From Neelides folsomi (lineage: Eukaryota > Arthropoda > Collembola > Neelipleona > Neelidae): a stretch of DNA of 64,000 bases. The stretch is taken from NCBI GenBank assembly GCA_034687125.1, contig JAQGBZ010000119.1, positions 62,001 through 126,000 of the forward strand, given 5' to 3'. The notes below the pieces were generated by a model, which saw only the letters and a program-made list of their open reading frames with translations, was not told where the DNA came from and did not search any database. Below are positions 1,183 through 60,400 of the stretch, one piece after another. A program made the translations under genes and the position numbers. The stretch's first letter is position 1; each line of letters begins with the position of its first letter.

Positions 1183-4100
1183 ATGAAAAATAATGTTCTA
1201 TATTTCATTTTACAAATACAAATACAATAATATACATAGTTTACACAGATATAATAACTAATTAATTTCTTAAAATAATACCTTTATACCATATATGAAA
1301 TATCGTATTGTAGCGTAAAATACGTATGAAGTATACGCTATTATACCTATTACCATACGTAATATTTACTATATTTTATTTATAAAATTCAATATTAGTA
1401 CAGTAGATATAATGGATTATTATCAGTATTATGTGTATGGTAGCTATGGGATAAAAAACGGAGTTGCTGACCAAGTTCATTCATAATTTAGTTGGCTTAG
1501 ACAGTGAGACGAAAATTTAATGTCAAGATTAGGGAACATTCATTGAGAAGAATTATGTACACGACAAATATTTATATATGTATGAGTTTATATGAATGTG
1601 TACAATGATGGTGTAATTCACATTCTCATCTCCATCTTCCCCTCTTTGTCCACCCAAACCCAAATGATAAATTGATCATCAAAGATCCCTCTTGTATTTC
1701 TACAGGAGCAAATGGAGGGGATATTTCCTTATCTAATCGACACTTGATGGATCGTTTTGGGCACCAAGGGACAAGAGTCTGCATTTAGAATACAATATGC
1801 TTTTTATTATATACCTACATGCTTATATGTATTTATGTTGTATACTGAGTAGTAGTATAGTAGACATGTTTATATAGTATATATTGTAAATATAAAATTT
1901 TGCATCTATCAATATTATTCATGTTTAGTTAAAAATTATATGTAATGGATATCTTTATAAAACTTTATCGCTTATAAAAGGATTTTCTTTCCCTTAAAAT
2001 AAATTTTGACTTTTATAAAGAAAGAAAAAGTTTTAATCTTTTCCTACCAGTCTTTATTTAAAGATTCTCAAGGCGGATTGAACCAATTTTCCAATTTCCT
2101 CATTTTCAATTTCTGAAAATCTCCGCCGTTCCTCAGAGACGGAGAAGAAGCTTATTCTTTCAAAACACTGGTTATACTAAGAAATATACTATTAGTTATA
2201 TCTCGGAACTAATTTGAGTCTCCACTCGGGACTCGGATTGATGAAAGGGGGAATATTGTAAGAGAGTGAAAGTGGGGCTTTTCTTGCAAGGGGATTTCAA
2301 TCCCCGTTAGATTTCTTATTATTATGCATAAGGACCAACCTCCCTCATCTTCCCACAAATCTTTAAAAGGGCCTTCTCAATCGTTTTATATTACAAAATG
2401 GACTACAATGGAAATAAACCAACCAAAGATATTTCAACCATTCTTTTCCAGACTTTAACATTCAAAAATACTCAAAATTTGCCTTTATCGATTAATAACT
2501 CGACCACGGTAAGCTTTTGGGAAAAAATGACTATACAGAAGGGAACAATTAATTTAGAATCAAATAGCATTATTATTTTCCGCCCTTTGACCCTTTAAAG
2601 GGTCAAAGACTTTCACAAATAGAGATTAATCTACATAGTTTATTTATTATTTTTTTATTTAGATATATGGCAAATAATTTAGTAAAAGTAATTGGTAGAA
2701 TAAATACAGAATTCACTATCTAAAAACCTCTTTATTTTTTTCCTCAATTCATTTCCCATCCAATTTTCCATCGAAGAAGTGAAGTGAATGGAAAAGAGAT
2801 AAAAGGAATTGTTTCGGAACTCCAACGGGTCGTTTAGTCCAAGTTTGTTCTCGGATTAAAGTCAGTGGTTAATCAGAGTCTGTCTATTATGCTCATTTTG
2901 GAGTATACTGACATTGGAGAATTGTTTTCTTATGGGTCGAGGAACCGCAACAGCTCCTGGCCCCAATCCTTTCACGTCTCATCAATTAAATCCTTTCCAA
3001 GGTCCAAATCGGAGAAAATCCATCCTAAACTTAAAACAAGACCTTTTATACACAGATAACATCTAACTTACCCTTAGTTAAGTTACTTAGATATGTTACA
3101 TATACATTCTTATGCTTTTCAACCGTGGAGAAGATTCTGCTCAATTACAATCACAATTTCCTTCTCAATTTCAAACCCTTTTAAGACAATTGAATCAAAT
3201 TGAATTTTTCCTCTTTCCTTCCTATTATTTACAACCAATTACTTACGCCACTTCATCAATTAATATTAATTTATATTTCACCATGTAAGGTATTCATTAG
3301 AGAAAATAGCTCCATCAAATGGAATTTATAAGATAAACAAAGTCCTTTACTTAACAATTAAGTTAAACGAACAATAAAGCACATTAAAATAAAAACCTTT
3401 TGTTGGCTCTTACATTTTTATCTATAGTATGTATTAAATACCATATATATGTATGGCATAAATACCTATGGCATATGCCTAATTTTATTATGTAAATAAC
3501 AGTAGTTGTATTACTGCTAATAATTAAGGTTTCTAAACACTCCTTCAATTTTATTAAAGGGGATAGGATAAATATTGATGGGAGCAGAAAGAGGCGGTTC
3601 AGGATAATCACAACAGAGACCAATTTGCAAAAACGTGAAGATGGGAATTTAAAAAAAATCGGCTCGCCTTCTTAATTTGTTTTTGTTTTTTGAAGGAGGT
3701 GGAAACTCCCACACCCACCGTCCGTCACAAGGAGTGCAAATGAATGTTAAGGAGAGCTTTGGGTGGCCTTTGGGCTTCATCATCTTCCTCACGAACCTTT
3801 TAACCGCCAACATGAGTTTTTAATACCAAGTTATAATATGGCCATTCCGGAATATGAATTCATACATTGAGAGAAAACCTGGGTAATTTATGTGGCTGTG
3901 AGAAGATTAGATTAAGGAATGAATAGAAGAAGCCGTTGAATTCTCTCTTGAATTAATGAAACGCCTTTTCAACATACAAACACTGGATTAATTCGAATTC
4001 TTCAAACAAACAAAGACCTTTAGAATGCATTTTCCTTCAAGCATTTTTTATTCATGAACTCTCTAACCTTTTGTTACTATAACACACAAAATTTATTTAT

Positions 4101-7100
4101 TTATTTATTTATTAAACATCCAAACTCAGATTCATCAAATCACCTGTCAAATCTGTAAAATATAACAAATTCATGGTGCCTGATATGAAAATCATATATC
4201 ATTATTATAGTATGTATATTGTACTCGTTTTGTCCAATACAATATAATATATGTATATTATATTAAGTATGTATATACCATACATACATACTTAAAGGTA
4301 TAATATCAATTATTAAATAAATATTAAACTTGGATTAAGATTTGTTTGGGTTTTGGCGGAAATGTTCGTGTCTTATTTGATAATTCGATGAGGATATCCG
4401 ACCATGCGTGTGTGTTTAATGCAGATCATAAATAGTTTATTAACATAATATTTCCCCTTAAGGCTCGAGCTCTGCCCTGTGAACAAAACATTAAAAATTG
4501 AAATGACCAGGACGAGACAAGTAGAGGTGAAGATGAGTGATTGTAATTGGAGAAAGAACCGCCTTTAAACGTCGCCGTGAATTGGGAACCGTTGGAAGGA
4601 ATTCACATCTGCATAGTTAAAAACTCAAAATGTGCTTTTCATGATTCAGAGATTAAAGAGAAATAAGGAAAATAATAAATGTTGGTTTTCACCTATAATC
4701 TTTACTACGCTACCTATACTGTATACTATATATTGTATGTACTTACTTAAATATTCTATGGGTATTTACAACAACGCGTGGTTGGATTGAAGGTGTGGAG
4801 GTTGAAAACCACTGAGATTGTGGAATTCATAAATAGCCAATAATTCTCTCACCAGCCACCACGGAAGGTCCGCTGTTGGGCATGGGAGTTTAATGAGAGT
4901 AATGGAGATTCACTCATGGGGAGGATTTGGCCCATAATCATCCTCATATAATAATAGTAAACCCTGACGGCCAATGAATCTCCCATTATTCCCTACACCA
5001 TATATACTTACTATATAAATATCTCAAGAGTTGAAAGATGCGTAAGATACGTGAAGGGATGTACAGCATGTAAGTATATTAGTATAGGAAAGCGAGTAAA
5101 ATGTTTTTTCTCTCTCGTTTGCATACTTAACTCGCTAATTCAAATAAGAATTACGAGCAATTGTCCAAGTAAGCTAGTAATAAATAGTAATATGGAAAAG
5201 TATACCTTCTCCATTTCAACATTCTTCCTTGCTATTCAAAACCAAGTTTTTTTCAACATCAATAACGAAATGTACACGGAATTTGCACATGCTACTTATA
5301 CATTCATAGAGTATACATATAAGATACCATACAGTGTATGGTACTTGGGTAATTAAGTATGCATAAAATATATAGTAATATGTAAATACAAATATGTAAT
5401 TATACATAAATATTATTGTCACATTACAAGTAAATACGTATTATAATATAAGATAGCCATTTTTCTTTTCTTTTTCCTTGTGGGATATAGCGTACATATT
5501 GTATATGAATTATATAGTATGTATTTAGTATTTCATATTATGTATACATCACTTGTATGATTTTCTTACCTGAAATAAATATAAGGATACAATGTACCTT
5601 AGTAAATGTACACTTATGAAGTATATTTAATGGAGGGATTTGGCGGATGATTGATTAACTCGATAGATCCTTTTTTGCATTTTGCGGAGGGAGCGGCAAA
5701 GGTTGGTTGAATCCAAAGTGAATCACCCACCTTGTCCACTCACCTGTCCCTCAAGTTCCCAGCTTGAGGTTTGGAAATCCATTGAGACCAATCCCGCCAC
5801 ATTCACCACCTTCAACCAGAATGGAGAAAATATGTGCAATATTTCACTCCGCACAGGCCGACGGATGAGCCATAATTATTTTCCACTCGACTCAATTTCC
5901 CAACCCCGAGATACTTCAACCAAATTCCATTTGAAAAACCCTCATAGTTACACATAGTTAAGTATATGTTATATAATGTGTTTTTCCATTGTCCATCCTA
6001 ACAAATTCCAGGAGTAGATTTATTATAAAAAGGTTTATCAGGATCGTATGGCGGATCAGCGTGTATTAGATATTCATATTATGTTGCTTTCTGGAATGTA
6101 AACCAAATGGTGAATGGATAAGCCCGGGATAAACTGAATAATCGGAATTTTGCAGAGGATAAAATATGAAGTCTGTCAAAGAGCCGTTTTTGTGTAATTG
6201 ATAGGGATTGGAAAATGGGTTGGGAGTTTGAAGGTGAAGATTGGGACTCTTTTATAATAAATAGCCGAGGAATTCAATTTAAACGGAGAGTTGATGCGAT
6301 GTTTAGTTTCATTCTTTCTCTCTTCGCTCTCTTAAGCCCCGTTTGTAAATTGAGAGTGGAAAAAGGTGTTCAGAGAATGTGGAGATCTCTTTGTGGAAAT
6401 GGACGGGAAGAAATAGATTGGAAGAAGTCACGGTTCGCTTCTTTAACTCCCTCATTCAAGAAACCTCTCGGTTGAACCACATGGAACACTCGGAGAGTAA
6501 AATGAAGTTGAGAGAAGTTTGAAGCTCTTAAGACATCAAGATTGAACTTTTATCTCAACCCTTCAATCTTTTTCTCATTTGCAATATCCTCCCTCATCTC
6601 TGTCTTAATGTTAGAGAAAATGGCAGTGAGATATATGAAACTTGGATTTATTATTTACTCATTTGAATAAATATTTTAAAATTTTAATTCCTCGTTTCAT
6701 ATACATAAAATAAAATGACTAATATTTATAAATTTCTAATTGCCAATTATAAATACTTTAATTGTTTTTTACATTAATTTCTTTACATTTATCTTAATGT
6801 CATTATAGTAATAAGACTATTAAAGTAAGGATAAGTATAGCATAAAAGAAGTGCAGTATTGTATTTCGTATTGCAAAAATGATTAAAGTAATTAGAGGCA
6901 CAGAGTGTTATATATTTTAACTATTGTGATTTACTCACTTTCAGTCATGATACTAAAAAAATTAATTGGAATTACTTATCTTATACTTACAGTACAAGTG
7001 TCAATGTAAATAAATTGAAATCAATTAAATTTTGAAAAACTTTTATTTAAATGTATGTGAGAATCAAGGGGGATTTGTTTCCGTCTTTAGTTTTATAAGG

Positions 7101-47448: not shown

Positions 47449-47476
47449 AGATGCTGAATGAACGAGAGAGGAAATC
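47424..47476 (+). other. 3' splice site and end of 5' UTR of the cadherin gene
   Basis: A pyrimidine-rich tract (CACTAACTTTTCCTTTCATTT, with CTAAC as a plausible branch point) leads into CCAG ending at 47448. The 28 bases that follow, up to the ATG at 47477, would be the last bases of the 5' UTR. This predicts an untranslated exon further upstream. Confidence 0.55.
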
Positions 47477-48444
47477 ATGAATCTTGGGTGGACGATTTTC
47501 CTCCTCCTCGTCATCTCGTTCGGACGAGTCCTTTCGGATAGCAAGAAAGGAAATGCAGAGGGACTCAACACCTTTCGATTCACTCAAGAGTTCTACAATG
47601 GGTCCGTGGCAGAGAACTCCATGGGCTCCACCATGGTCACTCCAACAGAGAAAATGGGGGTTTGGAATAGGGAATCGAGGACGAGGGTCGAGTACCGGAT
47701 CCTTGCTGGAGACTCCCACCATTTATTCCGACCTGAAGCCCGGCAAGTGGGAGACTTTTGCTTCCTCATCCTCCGAGTGAATAACAACGAGCGGAGTTTG
47801 AATCGCGAGATGAAGGAATTGTACAAACTGTCAATTCGGGCCGAACTCCACGACGAGGTCCGGGACGAGGAAAGTCTTCCCGTTGGATCAAACCTTCCCC
47901 CCTCTTCCCTGAGGAGCGAAGGAGAGAATTCAAATGAAATTATTGATTTTGGGAAAGAGGCAACCGGAGCTGACACGACTCCGGACACTTTAAAACCTAT
48001 GAGTCTCAAGAGGGAGAAGGGAAATGGGACACGACGAGGACGAGGGCCAAAGGCACGCGGGGCCAGGAGGATCCTCAGAGACGACACCGGTCGAAGGACC
48101 GGGAATAAACCAAGAACCAAAAACCGGAGCGGAGAGAAGCGAAAAAACCGAAAGGAAAAAGATCTCATCAAGTCAACTTTCCCCATAGTTCCTTCCACTT
48201 CGACCACGTCGAAGCCCACAACCCCCAAAACTACCACAACCCCGCCGATTCAAAACGGGAAAGCTCTTCGAGTCACCGACACGACCGTGTTCATTCGAAT
48301 CATCGACCTTAACGACAACGTCCCTGTATTTGAAAACCCAACCTACGATGTGGCAGTTAATGAAGATGCTCCGGTGTTGTCGAAAGTGGCAAAGATCACC
48401 GCTGCGGATGCAGACATTGGCCGGAATCGTGAAATTTACTACAG
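47477..48444 (+). CDS. kug: kug coding exon 1: signal peptide, EC1 with basic insertion, start of EC2
   Basis: Residues 1-323 (last codon split AG/C). The ATG at 47477 is chosen because a hydrophobic signal sequence follows at once. EC1 strands run from about residue 31 (NTFRFTQEFYNGSVAENS) to 122 (YKLSIRAEL). They resume at 268 with DTTVFIRIIDLNDNVPVF, which carries the canonical calcium motif DLNDNVP. Between them lies a 140-145 residue insertion that is acidic at first, strongly Arg/Lys-rich at 178-230, and Thr/Pro-rich at 234-258. N-glycosylation sequons occur at NGS (41) and NGT (183). The donor is ACAG/GTGAGG. Confidence 0.92.
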
Positions 48445-51400
48445 GTGAGGTTTAAATTATTCCAAGATTCATTCCATGCAGGGAAGCTCATCAGAATGCC
48501 AAAGGAGTTCTGGTTCTAAACTTCTGCAGAGGCAATAATGAGTCAGCTTCTGAATTCTAAATTCAATATTTCCCTCCCATAACCCGCCTTGAGCAGTTCA
48601 CAACCTTGGTCAGCCCATGAATTAAACTCAGATGCAACTGCTTTTTTCATCATCAACACGACTCGTAAATTATTTACGTCCGCAGACCCAAACTGCATCA
48701 CTTGACATTTCAGGAATGTCACTCTCTTGGAAAAGTCTTTCCTCCATAAATATTTGCAGAAACTCCCCTTGACACTTTGAAGAACTTTAGAAGGAAAAGG
48801 AGAAATGTGTACACAAATGAACCAAAGTCATAAATCATCTCGTAAATGATCCAAAGCCCAATCGTCACTCTTTTCGATTTCCCCATAAGCTAAAATGACT
48901 CAGAAATATATTAAATTCCTCTCGTAAGCACTATGTGTTAACGACACTATTAATATTCCATCTACGGTTAGCATTGCTAACTTAGCAACCAACAGAATTC
49001 TACATCAATTATATATATCAATTCGTATATATACAGTATGTAAATACATATACCGGACTGTATATATTAAATATCTCCCTCGCCAATTTGCACTTCATTC
49101 ATAATTCCCCATTTTTATGCATTTCTCAATGGCGCTAAACAGGTAGTAAGTCATATATTTAACCAATCTTTTTATCCTTATCAGCTCTGACCATAAAGAC
49201 ATACGTATGATAGTTCTACCTATAGTATACATACTCTACACACCATCATTATCATTATACAACGTATAGATATTTATATACAATAGTAATAAGAGTAATA
49301 AGAAAGATGTATAAATAAAAAAATGTATTAGATTGTAGGTTTTTATATATAGTGTGGGTATTTATTATATGATAAGAATTGGATTTGAAACATGAAGTAT
49401 AACAAGTTTCCTTTTCTAGTTCGTTTTATTCCTTTAACAATATGTGAGAGTCAAGTTGATGAAAAATGATCTTTACGTCTTCTCACGTCGAGAGCACTCA
49501 CATTGATGAGTTATAATACCCACTCAATGAAAAAGTGATTGTAAAATCATGCTGACACGTCCTGAGATAAAATGCTCGCCTTTGAAAGAATGAGAAATGG
49601 AGTTTATTTTATGCTCCTTGGAATAATACCTTACTACAGAGTGAGCTACAGCCCTCCAATGCTTCATACATGAGAAATGCGAAATGTATTATGTATAGTT
49701 ATATTAACAATAATGCCCGAGGGAGAGTAAAGGCAGTGGTGAATTGTTAATGGAGACCAGATGAGGAAATTTACACATCAGTTCAAAGCCGCGAATTCAT
49801 TATCAATTATAATTTAACAACTTTGTCCCAACTTTTGTGTGTTTTATTTCACAGATATTCAAATGTGAAAATCATACGGGAAATTCAAATGCTTATTTAA
49901 TTAAGCTTAGGGTCATTCGATTACTTAAACTTACTCTCGTCAATCTCCCGTTTAAATCCATATTTGTAAGGATATTAATGGATGAGGAAATTAAGAGATT
50001 CGCTCTCAGGAGCGATAAAAGCTTTTAAACACAATTTATTCATTTAAATGACGCTTGCAGCAAGTAAGTATATTTAAGTGTATGTTAATTTAAATAAAGA
50101 TAGGTAGGTAAGGTAGTTATGCATCGAGAAAGTTTTCTCACTTTGGATTTAAATACTTCTCTACCAATTTCCATAATTTTAAGCGTAATTTAAACTTTAA
50201 ATAGTAAAATTCCTGGCTGATCAACGTCGGTTGATCTAGTTGACATTTAATTAGGATATATAACTCTTAATCACTTAAGAGTTTTCTATTTTGTAAAATT
50301 GTAATTAGAAGCCCAGTTGAAATAGAAAAAAATTATTTAATATCGTCCTATACATCGCGATGCATCTCGAACCGCTTTTCATTCGCGCTTTGATTTCGAA
50401 AGGAATTCACATTTTCATTTCCTTCAATTCTTTTTGGCTTCAGTTTAATCAGTTTCCTTTTCGGTTTTATTCCTTTGTTAAATGTCTCATTTTTATCCGG
50501 ATAAAATGGATTTTAATCAGCGCCAACCGTTTTTAACAATTTCCTTTTTAATCCTCACCTCACTTTATTTATTTTTTATTTTGGGTTTTTATAAAATCAT
50601 CATACGTATTGTTTTCTCACCATTTCGCTAGTCGATTTCAATTCTATAATTAATTCCAATTTTATAATTTAAATAGTTATAATGCAGAAATAAAGACCTT
50701 CATTCAGAGCTTCCTTTTCCTTAGATTTTGTCCCGATTATATTTATTCAGAGACGATAAGAATACAGGTGTTAGGTGAAAGGAAAAAAGGTTTTTGTGTC
50801 ATAAAAGGACTCTTGTTGTTCAAAGAATTGAATAAATGGTCTTGTAGTAAAATAAGTTTGAAGAATCTATAAACTATCCGAACTTTGTAGACCTCGTGAG
50901 TTTATTTTATATCCCTCTGCTTGTCTATTGATTCGGGCCCAAAGAGTTTATTTATTCTTTCACATGGTTGTATTTCCCAAAGAGGGGTTGGATTTATTAT
51001 CCGCCTTCGTTTTTCTACCGGGTAAAATAAATTAATAATCTTTAATTTTAGCCTGTCGGAGTGGAGTGATCATTGGACGATCGATCCGATTACGGGGATT
51101 CTCTCGCCGGTTCGTCCGCTCGTGGGTCGGGCCGACGGGTCAAGACAAAAAATCTCAGTCAGAGCCCGGAACCGATGGAACGCCGGAGGAGGAAGTTCCG
51201 CCAACGTCAACATCCTCGTCCGCCCTGTCAACCGCTACGCCCCCCACATCTCGACCATCACCCCGCCCCAGGTAAACTTCCCATCCTCACGTAGACATAA
51301 TTAACCAGCCTTCATGAGTCAGGGTGTGGGCGAGGATTCATGATTTCCTCAAAGCCGTTCCCGCTCCTCGTGGATGGTTAATGAACTGGATAATTGAGTT

Positions 51401-57400: not shown

Positions 57401-60400
57401 TTGCATTATTAAACACATAATAAATGATATTTCAAACTTTTCTCATTATTTTCTCAGATGGTTAAATATGATTAAATTGGATTTTAGCTTTCTGAATATT
57501 GAAACTAAGCTTATAATTTATATAAGCTTTTTGTAAATTTGTTGATAATTTGTTAGGTATTGGACTCCAACGACAACCCTCCAAGATTTGCCAAGTCAGG
57601 GATGAAGATCAAATTTGGCGAAGGGGATGCTCTTGTTGGAGAAACTCTCCTTCAAGTTAGTGCAACAGATGCGGACGAAGAAGGAAGTCCAAATTCTGCC
57701 ATTTCTTTCCGTCTTCTCTCCGATTTCCCAGAATTCACCATTGATGAGAAGAGCGGCGAAGTGAAATTGATGAAGGAGCTCGACCGAGAGCGCCAAGACA
57801 AATACGAAATACTCGTCATGGCCGAAGATAATGGAAGTCCCAAACGGCTTTCTTCCATTGCCGTCCTAACTCTCATTGTTGAGGATCGAAATGATAATCC
57901 GCCGCGGTTTGAAGCCCTTGGACCAAATAGCAAATCACGAGTGGCTAAAATCCGCGAAGATTGGCCGGTCGGCGGGCTTGTGACGCGGGTTTTTGCAAAA
58001 GACGATGATTTGGGTTCAGCTGGTGAAGTTCGTTATAGTCTCATTGACGCCAGTTCTGACTTTCTTCTCGATGACCTCTCAGGTGTGATTCGAGTGGGTC
58101 GGAAATTGAACTATGAGAGGAATTCCATTTATAATCTCACGATCCGTGCACGAGACTTGGGTGCTCCGTCTCTTTATTCAGACACTTTCATCGTGGTCGA
58201 GGTGAGATTTGACTTTTTTCCCCACTCGAGGTTTAATGACGTTAAAGAGAATATGAATGTCTTTTATCGCTTCACACGTCCAGGCTAATGCATTATAAAC
58301 ATTTATATGGGTTTTGGGTCCAAGTGGGACAAATTCAAGAGTTTTTATACATTGCGTAAATGAGTTGTTCAAACAATTTGGCTGGGGGAGAATGAGTGGA
58401 TTGGTTAAATGATTAAAATGGAGGTGAAAGTCGTGGATTTATTTACCAACTCAATTTACTTCCATTTGATAGAAAGGATAAGAGAACAAATGGGCTGGTT
58501 TGAATATCCAAAACGTGTTTATTATTTTTTTTCACGCCCGGGTGACTTTGGCTCATGATTTACTTAAGGAATTAATTAATTAATCGTGTATGCTATAGGC
58601 TGCGAGTAATTATTCAATATTAGGTAATCGTTTTTCCAATTATATTAATTAATAGCATTTATATATATACTTTAATTAAATATAGTTATTTAATGATCAA
58701 TAACTAATGGTTAGTTTGGTTTAATTTGGTTTAATTTGGTTCAATTAAGTTAATTATTCGAGTTTTGAATATTATTTTATTCTATGGCCAAATAAAGAAG
58801 TAGGGTAAGAATTACCAAAATGAATACAAATGGAATTTATTGCAAAATCAATTCCTTTGGACCGACATTGGCATTGACATTGAGAAGTATTGATTATTGA
58901 TCAAATGATTTGGCGTGTCAATGGCACACACGAACTTATTATTTGCTTAATGTTTTCAGATTTTCGAGGTTCGGGACCGAAGTCCTCTCATCTCATTCCC
59001 AGACATCGTCGTGATGGCCAAAATCCCCGAAAATTCACCTGTAGGATCGATAGTGACCTCGGTGTCTCCCACAGTTTCCCCAGACAATAAATATCCCGGT
59101 GTGTCCCTGAGCCTCGAAGGCGAGTCAAAGTTCCTCTTTACCGTTTCTCGTGACGGAGTTCTTCGAACTGCGAATGTTCTGGATCGAGAAACGAAATCTT
59201 CTCACTGGTTGACCGTTGTGGCCAGAACGGCCTTTTCTTATGGCCCTGCTTCTGACACGAGTGTGGCCAAGATGGAAGCTTTCATTGAAGTTGAAGGAGA
59301 AAACGATTGTGTTCCTCTCTCCGTATCCCCAATGTACAGGACAGAAGTTGTGGAGAATTCCCCGGTTGGTCTTCTCCTCCTTAAGATAGAAGCCTTTGAC
59401 TGTGATGATGACAACCAGGGGTTTACCTTTACCCTACGGGGTTCCAATCCCCATTTCACAATTTCTAGTTCAGGGGAGTTGAGGACTTCGGCCGTTCCAT
59501 TGGACAGAGAAGAGACCGAAGAACATATTCTTGAAGTGCTAATATTTGACACGGGCACTCTACCACTCAATTCAACCACCAAAGTGACAGTGAGTGTGAG
59601 AGATGAAAATGACAACCATCCACAGTTCCTATTTGGAAGCGGCGTTTACTTAATCCCCGAGTTGGGGCAAGATGTCCAAGGAGATGAACCATTAGATGGA
59701 GACAATTTTATTGAAACCGAAGAGGAAGAATTTGAGGATGGGCTCAAATGGTCCGATTGGCAAGTTCTTCCTGAAGAAATGATGGAAGACGAAGGGAGCG
59801 GAGACGGCGATGAGTTTGAAGGCATTGGGTGGAAAAAGATCTTCAGGATTGTTGGGTTCGACGGAGACGAGGGCCGGAATGGAACCCTCACTTACCGGCT
59901 CAAGTACCAAGTGAATTCAAATGGGGGTGAAGGGAAGGGCACGGACGTGTTTTCCATCCACCGCGAGACTGGAGAAATCTTCACAAGTGCGACGAGCATT
60001 AAGGGAGAAACAATACTCAAATTTGTGATTGAAGCCTCGGACGGAGGTTTCCCAATGCCGCTAAAGGCCGAACGAGAGCTTGTTCTGAGAGCCAAGGGAA
60101 TTCGTCCCCGCCCTGCTCATCACCCGCCCGTCCTCCTCACAACTCAGGATGCCGTCTCATTGACCACTAAGGAAAATCCGGGATACACCGTCGAGACGAT
60201 CGATGCCTTTGACTCGGATGGTGATCAAATTTGGTACGAAATCGTGTCAGGGGATCCGCAGAGGAATTTCTTCATGAACCCCGACTCTCAGAATCTCCTA
60301 CTTGCAAAAAGAATCTCTTCAAGACAAGAATTCACACTTAATATTAGTCTTAGTGATGGACATTCCATCGTTTATACCAAAGTAAGTATTTTATTACATT

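Follow-up and report, generated by a model that had tools for sequence, protein, structure and literature searches.

A large, charged and probably disordered insertion in the first cadherin repeat of a Fat-like protein of Neelides folsomi

The Fat-like subfamily of giant cadherins (Drosophila kug/Fat2; vertebrate FAT1, FAT2 and FAT3) and a protein encoded in the genome of the collembolan Neelides folsomi have a common order of domains, from a long run of cadherin repeats to the cytoplasmic tail. They differ in the first repeat, EC1, in which the region between strands F and G comprises about 15 residues in human FAT1 and about 138 residues in the collembolan protein. Does this additional segment belong to the protein or is it an intron, and what might it do at the tip of the ectodomain? 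Here, these questions are addressed for a window of 64,000 nucleotides (bases 62001-126000 of contig JAQGBZ010000119.1, from here: C119), with searches of the entire genome (840 contigs, 75.1 Mb). Coordinates without a contig name are positions within the window.

The first coding exon found for this gene is located at 47477..48444 on the + strand, as judged from its open frame, its translation and the donor site cag/GTGAGG that closes it at 48445. The frame is open from 47462 to 48448 (328 codons) and yields 323 residues from the ATG at 47477, comprising a putative signal peptide (hydrophobic residues 1-20, 47477..47536, assigned by eye), EC1 with its insertion and the start of EC2. An antisense open frame of 218 codons also runs across EC1 (47593-48249, − strand); it had no Pfam match and was rejected as a gene, being probably a side effect of composition. 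Scans of prokaryote and viral contig collections with the EC1 exon found no relative, as expected of such collections.

The cadherin-repeat exons run across the window and for about 22 kb past its end. The long run of repeats is followed by laminin G, EGF repeats, a transmembrane stretch and a cytoplasmic tail ending in THITQV, the last two recognized by eye. A rough, virtually spliced model of the gene has 4778 residues and is free of stops; several of its junctions are uncertain, and repeat numbers are therefore approximate. Pfam searches with five pieces of the model returned Cadherin, Laminin_G and EGF matches, and domains were also assigned with a rough HMM. Based on this domain order and on the FAT1 sequence, we take the gene to encode a Fat-like (kug/FAT1-3) giant cadherin, probably of the kug/FAT1 type. 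The locus is distinct from the genes on contigs C484, C58 and C241, which we assume, by eye from sequence, to be Fat, Dachsous and a Celsr/Flamingo-type gene, respectively; the Fat gene contains single open frames of up to 1511 residues. In a PDB search, Fat4 was present and FAT1-3 were not among the 60 listed of 109 matches.

The first 10,000 bases of the mitochondrial contig (C742, 15,157 bases in all), read with code 5, carry nad2, cox1, cox2, atp6, cox3 and nad3 on one strand and nad1 on the opposite one, the names being given by eye. The arrangement looks like the ancestral one of arthropods and does not favour a copepod label. ARAGORN, run with the bacterial code, found no tRNA on this contig, and 18S sequences occur in the genome only as fragments at contig ends.

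A reading of this DNA from the letters alone (from here: the sequence-only reading) had described a large basic insertion inside EC1 at 47843-48277, residues 123-267. This span is exact, residue 123 starting at 47843 and residue 267 ending at 48277, and the insertion itself is borne out. From strand positions, distance counts and the coding signal, the insertion proper was assigned to residues 125-262 (138 aa, 47849..48262, + strand) in the F-G loop. These 138 residues separate strands A to F (47573..47848, + strand; placed by sequence and by strands in two low-confidence models), the last of which is YKLSIRAEL (residues 116-124), from strand G (ALRVTDTTV, from residue 263), which together with the linker reads ALRVTDTTVFIRIIDLNDN (residues 263-281, 48263..48319, + strand; placed by sequence).

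The size of the insertion was measured by pattern search as the distance between the DRE-type motif and the DxND linker. The sample comprised 47 repeats in four proteins of the same genome (9, 18, 17 and 3 repeats), the window gene and three other giant cadherins; the count covers repeats that show both of these motifs within one open frame, uninterrupted by an intron. The distance is 165 in EC1 of the window protein and 24-36 in 44 of the 46 other repeats. On inspection, the two outliers, 52 and 130, turned out to be pattern errors (a wrong starting motif; an unrecognised linker that was skipped). For EC1 of Fat and of Dachsous the distances are 27 and 24. As these are comparisons within one genome, the size observation holds without the FAT1 sequence: the F-G loop of EC1 does carry an insertion, which at about 138 residues far exceeds every other F-G region measured.

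The F-G loop of a cadherin repeat lies at its N-terminal end. Because no repeat lies above EC1, the insert would constitute the outermost tip of the protein. For EC1 of PCDH24, the F-G loop is described near the XDX-top motif, and calcium site 0 is discussed there (PMC8691648). AlphaFold was run on the single sequence and with an alignment (A3) containing eleven pieces of other repeats of the gene, and both models were poor (mean pLDDT 43.6 and 46.4, respectively). Six rows of A3 had the ends of their F strands on G-strand columns; the alternative alignments A1, A2 and A4 looked worse and were not used for folding. In both models the insert is nearly all coil, between strands near residues 114-126 and 265-277, and no helix or strand of at least 3 residues lies wholly inside it. 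Strand edges enter its ends, the first strand extending up to residue 126 in model 1 and a bridge lying near 258-262 in model 2. Because of these edges and the poor models, it is mainly the sequence that supports the F-G placement; the models agree with it without proving it.

Is the segment coding? Codon scores were trained on 38 exon cores (4311 codons) chosen by cadherin motifs, with the 17,368 intervening bases serving as intron, although these could include unrecognised exons. The GC content of the insert is 0.526, compared to 0.482 in the exon cores and 0.344 in the introns. Its codon score of 0.441 in the reading frame compares with 0.10 and 0.144 in the two remaining forward frames and with 0.024, 0.242 and −0.217 on the reverse strand. 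Exon windows (n = 76, leave-one-out) scored 0.121-0.602 with a mean of 0.388, while none of 648 intron windows was open or reached the score of the insert. The score was likewise reached by none of 2000 base shuffles, and 6 of 2000 further shuffles stayed open. The synonymous-choice score per codon is 0.132 for the insert, 0.144 for the cores and 0.270 for the EC1 flanks. Since scores based on amino acids favour any translated segment, these values speak for coding character and not for function.

The opposing reading is that the segment is removed, partly or wholly, from some mRNAs as an intron or exitron. Exitrons as described in PMC4484396 resemble the insert in being stop-free coding segments inside an exon, and a donor-like site is indeed present at its edge: GAG/GTCCGG near the insertion start (47858..47863, + strand) scores 8.3, in the range of the gene's own donors. 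Weaker splice sites than those of other introns and a GC content above that of introns, both reported for exitrons (PMC4484396), would also fit. Splice matrices were built from the gene's own introns, with 27 of 38 junctions kept (at least 3 bits at both sites) and 11 dropped; this 3-bit filter is in part responsible for the minima of the kept range (4.2 for donors, 4.2 for acceptors and 10.1 for pairs). The dropped junctions, with acceptors as low as −2.2, probably have misplaced boundaries. Within the insert, no acceptor scored above 0.3 with the final matrix, against 4.2 to 12.5 in the 27 kept introns, and with an earlier matrix of 11 introns the best one reached 2.1 (at 48012), against 5.5 to 12.7 for introns. 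A pyrimidine-rich AG at 48188 scored 0.9 with the 11-intron matrix and is out of phase with the 47858 donor. Hence, a donor is present but a usable in-frame acceptor to match it is not, and the best frame-keeping pairs in the insert, 8.4 (102 nt) and 7.7 (153 nt), stay below the kept-intron minimum of 10.1. Moreover, the GC content of the insert is higher than that of the gene's exons, whereas Arabidopsis exitrons are described as lower than exons (PMC4484396). Removal as an intron or exitron from some mRNAs is thus very improbable in our estimate. As the coding score and the lack of a credible 3′ splice site together imply, a constitutive intron across the insert is unlikely, in line with the earlier argument from the open frame and the family-conserved flanking strands.

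Three blocks follow each other along the insert: an acidic, Ser-rich one (residues 122-178, net charge −8, 47840..48010), a basic one (residues 178-231, 48008..48169, net +17) and a mucin-like one rich in Thr, Pro and Ser (residues 232-261, 48170..48259), all on the + strand. The dense Arg/Lys tract and the Thr/Pro-rich tail of the sequence-only reading were both found, the former with 14 R and 9 K (23 of 54 residues) and the latter with P, S or T at 20 of 30 positions. The basic block also contains two N-glycosylation sequons, NGT (183) and NRS (216). A charge scan in 50-residue windows, with starts up to residue 4000 of the model, placed the most basic window of the ectodomain on the EC1 insert (+18; the best elsewhere was +8). 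Charge-hydropathy indices of −0.29 (insert) and +0.09 (EC1 flanks), together with the coil in the low-confidence models, predict that the insert is intrinsically disordered. We regard it as very probable that the insertion is real, retained in the protein and disordered.

A basic segment at this position might be a processing site, with proprotein convertases cutting the Arg-rich block to give a two-chain EC1 or to remove the tip. The minimal R-x-x-R sites reported earlier at residues 186, 194 and 222 are present, though a fourth at 198 had been missed, and all four (48032..48151, + strand) lie in an exposed, probably disordered segment. Their number is at chance level (3.2 expected from shuffling, P(≥4) = 0.41), and the R-X-K/R-R motif is absent from the insert, which leaves the earlier suggestion of furin-type cleavage weak. 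R-X-K/R-R motifs occur three times elsewhere in the model: RMRR at 2374, RAKR at 3977 and, within the cytoplasmic tail, RYRR at 4674. The RAKR motif is encoded beyond the window (C119 142614-142676), after the final cadherin repeats and before the EGF/LamG part. It sits about 800 residues from the C-terminus, where a FAT1-like p85 cleavage would fall, FAT1 being described to yield a p85 fragment (PMC3953070). RAKR would be compatible with a FAT1-type first cleavage giving a p85-like fragment and is a likelier site of first cleavage than the EC1 motifs. On this evidence we consider processing within the insert improbable.

The explanation that we prefer overall, and to which we give about an even chance, is a real coding insertion in EC1 that forms a disordered, charged extension of the tip and possibly binds glycosaminoglycans. 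Disordered and protruding from the membrane-distal tip, its basic block could serve as a flexible charged tether for acidic matrix or cell-surface glycosaminoglycans, a weaker part of the proposal, and such a tether could help to concentrate the Fat-like protein at contacts or matrix. If O-glycans are attached, the Thr/Pro part would act as a stiff spacer. Fat2 is reported to recruit Lar and to act in trans together with it and one or more unidentified transmembrane proteins (PMC9576270), and syndecan to bind LAR through heparan sulfate (PMC4795781); on this basis, heparan sulfate in the vicinity of Lar might be a ligand of such a flexible basic tip. Residues 177-232, a range chosen post hoc, contain three heparin-type XBBXBX patterns, where shuffling gives 0.77 (P(≥3) = 0.03). 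From the composition and these three patterns, glycosaminoglycan binding appears conceivable, and we propose it tentatively. Against such a role, the acidic first third of the insert (net −8) could neutralise the basic block.

Less weight, well short of an even chance, is given to a near-neutral, low-complexity expansion of the loop in which the charges are incidental. On this reading, the F-G loop of EC1 would tolerate growth because there is no repeat above it to pack against. Consistent with a neutral origin, the insert had no Pfam match (E up to 10), its DNA and its peptide matched only themselves in the genome (the DNA search ignoring very common words), internal repeats are weak, and the same protein carries a second large insert at about EC11. 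A tandem-repeat origin was rejected, only two short and weak internal arrays being present, and a PDB match to MRE11 (E 0.9) was attributed to composition, leaving no meaningful PDB match. However, the order of the blocks and the extreme net basic charge exceed generic low complexity. The codon score is also at exon level, though any translated sequence would fit this. A limited search of the open literature (titles and the starts of abstracts) found no paper on a comparable EC1 insertion.

The second insertion, at about EC11, comprises 55 residues (59665..59829, + strand), was identified in the charge scan of the model and is acidic, with 22 D/E, 1 K/R and a net charge of −21. It holds the most acidic 50-residue window of the ectodomain model (−21), of opposite charge to the EC1 insert. 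Another long charged insertion is located in a later cadherin repeat of the gene (C119 132704-132853). Of the leads from this analysis, the contrast in charge between the inserts in EC1 and EC11 is the most interesting. Conceivably, the two (+18 and −21) form an electrostatic latch, either in cis, with the tip folding back onto EC11, or in trans, with an antiparallel pair of Fat-like molecules registering EC1 beside EC11. On charge values from sequence, we consider such a latch a long shot; if true, the length of adhesion would be set by charge and not by a folded EC1-4 interface.

How do these results relate to known cadherins? Fat4 and Dachsous1 are described to bind along EC1-4 with 14 salt bridges, and EC4 of Fat4 to have a split beta1 strand that carries an insertion, along with an extended beta6-beta7 (F-G) loop, the significance of the latter being given there as unknown (PMC9935876). 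The beta1 insertion contacts EC1 of Dachsous1 (PMC9935876). Fat4 EC4 thus resembles the case reported here as a Fat cadherin with loop insertions, its beta6-beta7 loop being the equivalent of the F-G loop; it differs in that it is EC4 and known from a crystal structure (PMC9935876), whereas the present insert is in EC1, comprises about 138 residues and is predicted to be disordered. The insertion is ordinary in kind and large in degree; it lies in the outermost repeat of a Fat-like cadherin and is probably disordered.

Partner recognition in the Fat-like branch is less clear than for Fat4 and Dachsous, whose EC1-4 interface is solved. If the insertion is neutral, it shows only that EC1 can accommodate a longer free F-G loop. 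A long, charged and disordered segment at the tip would mean that a clean surface on EC1 is not required, and the insertion may provide a natural insertion/deletion test of tip chemistry in Fat-like signalling.
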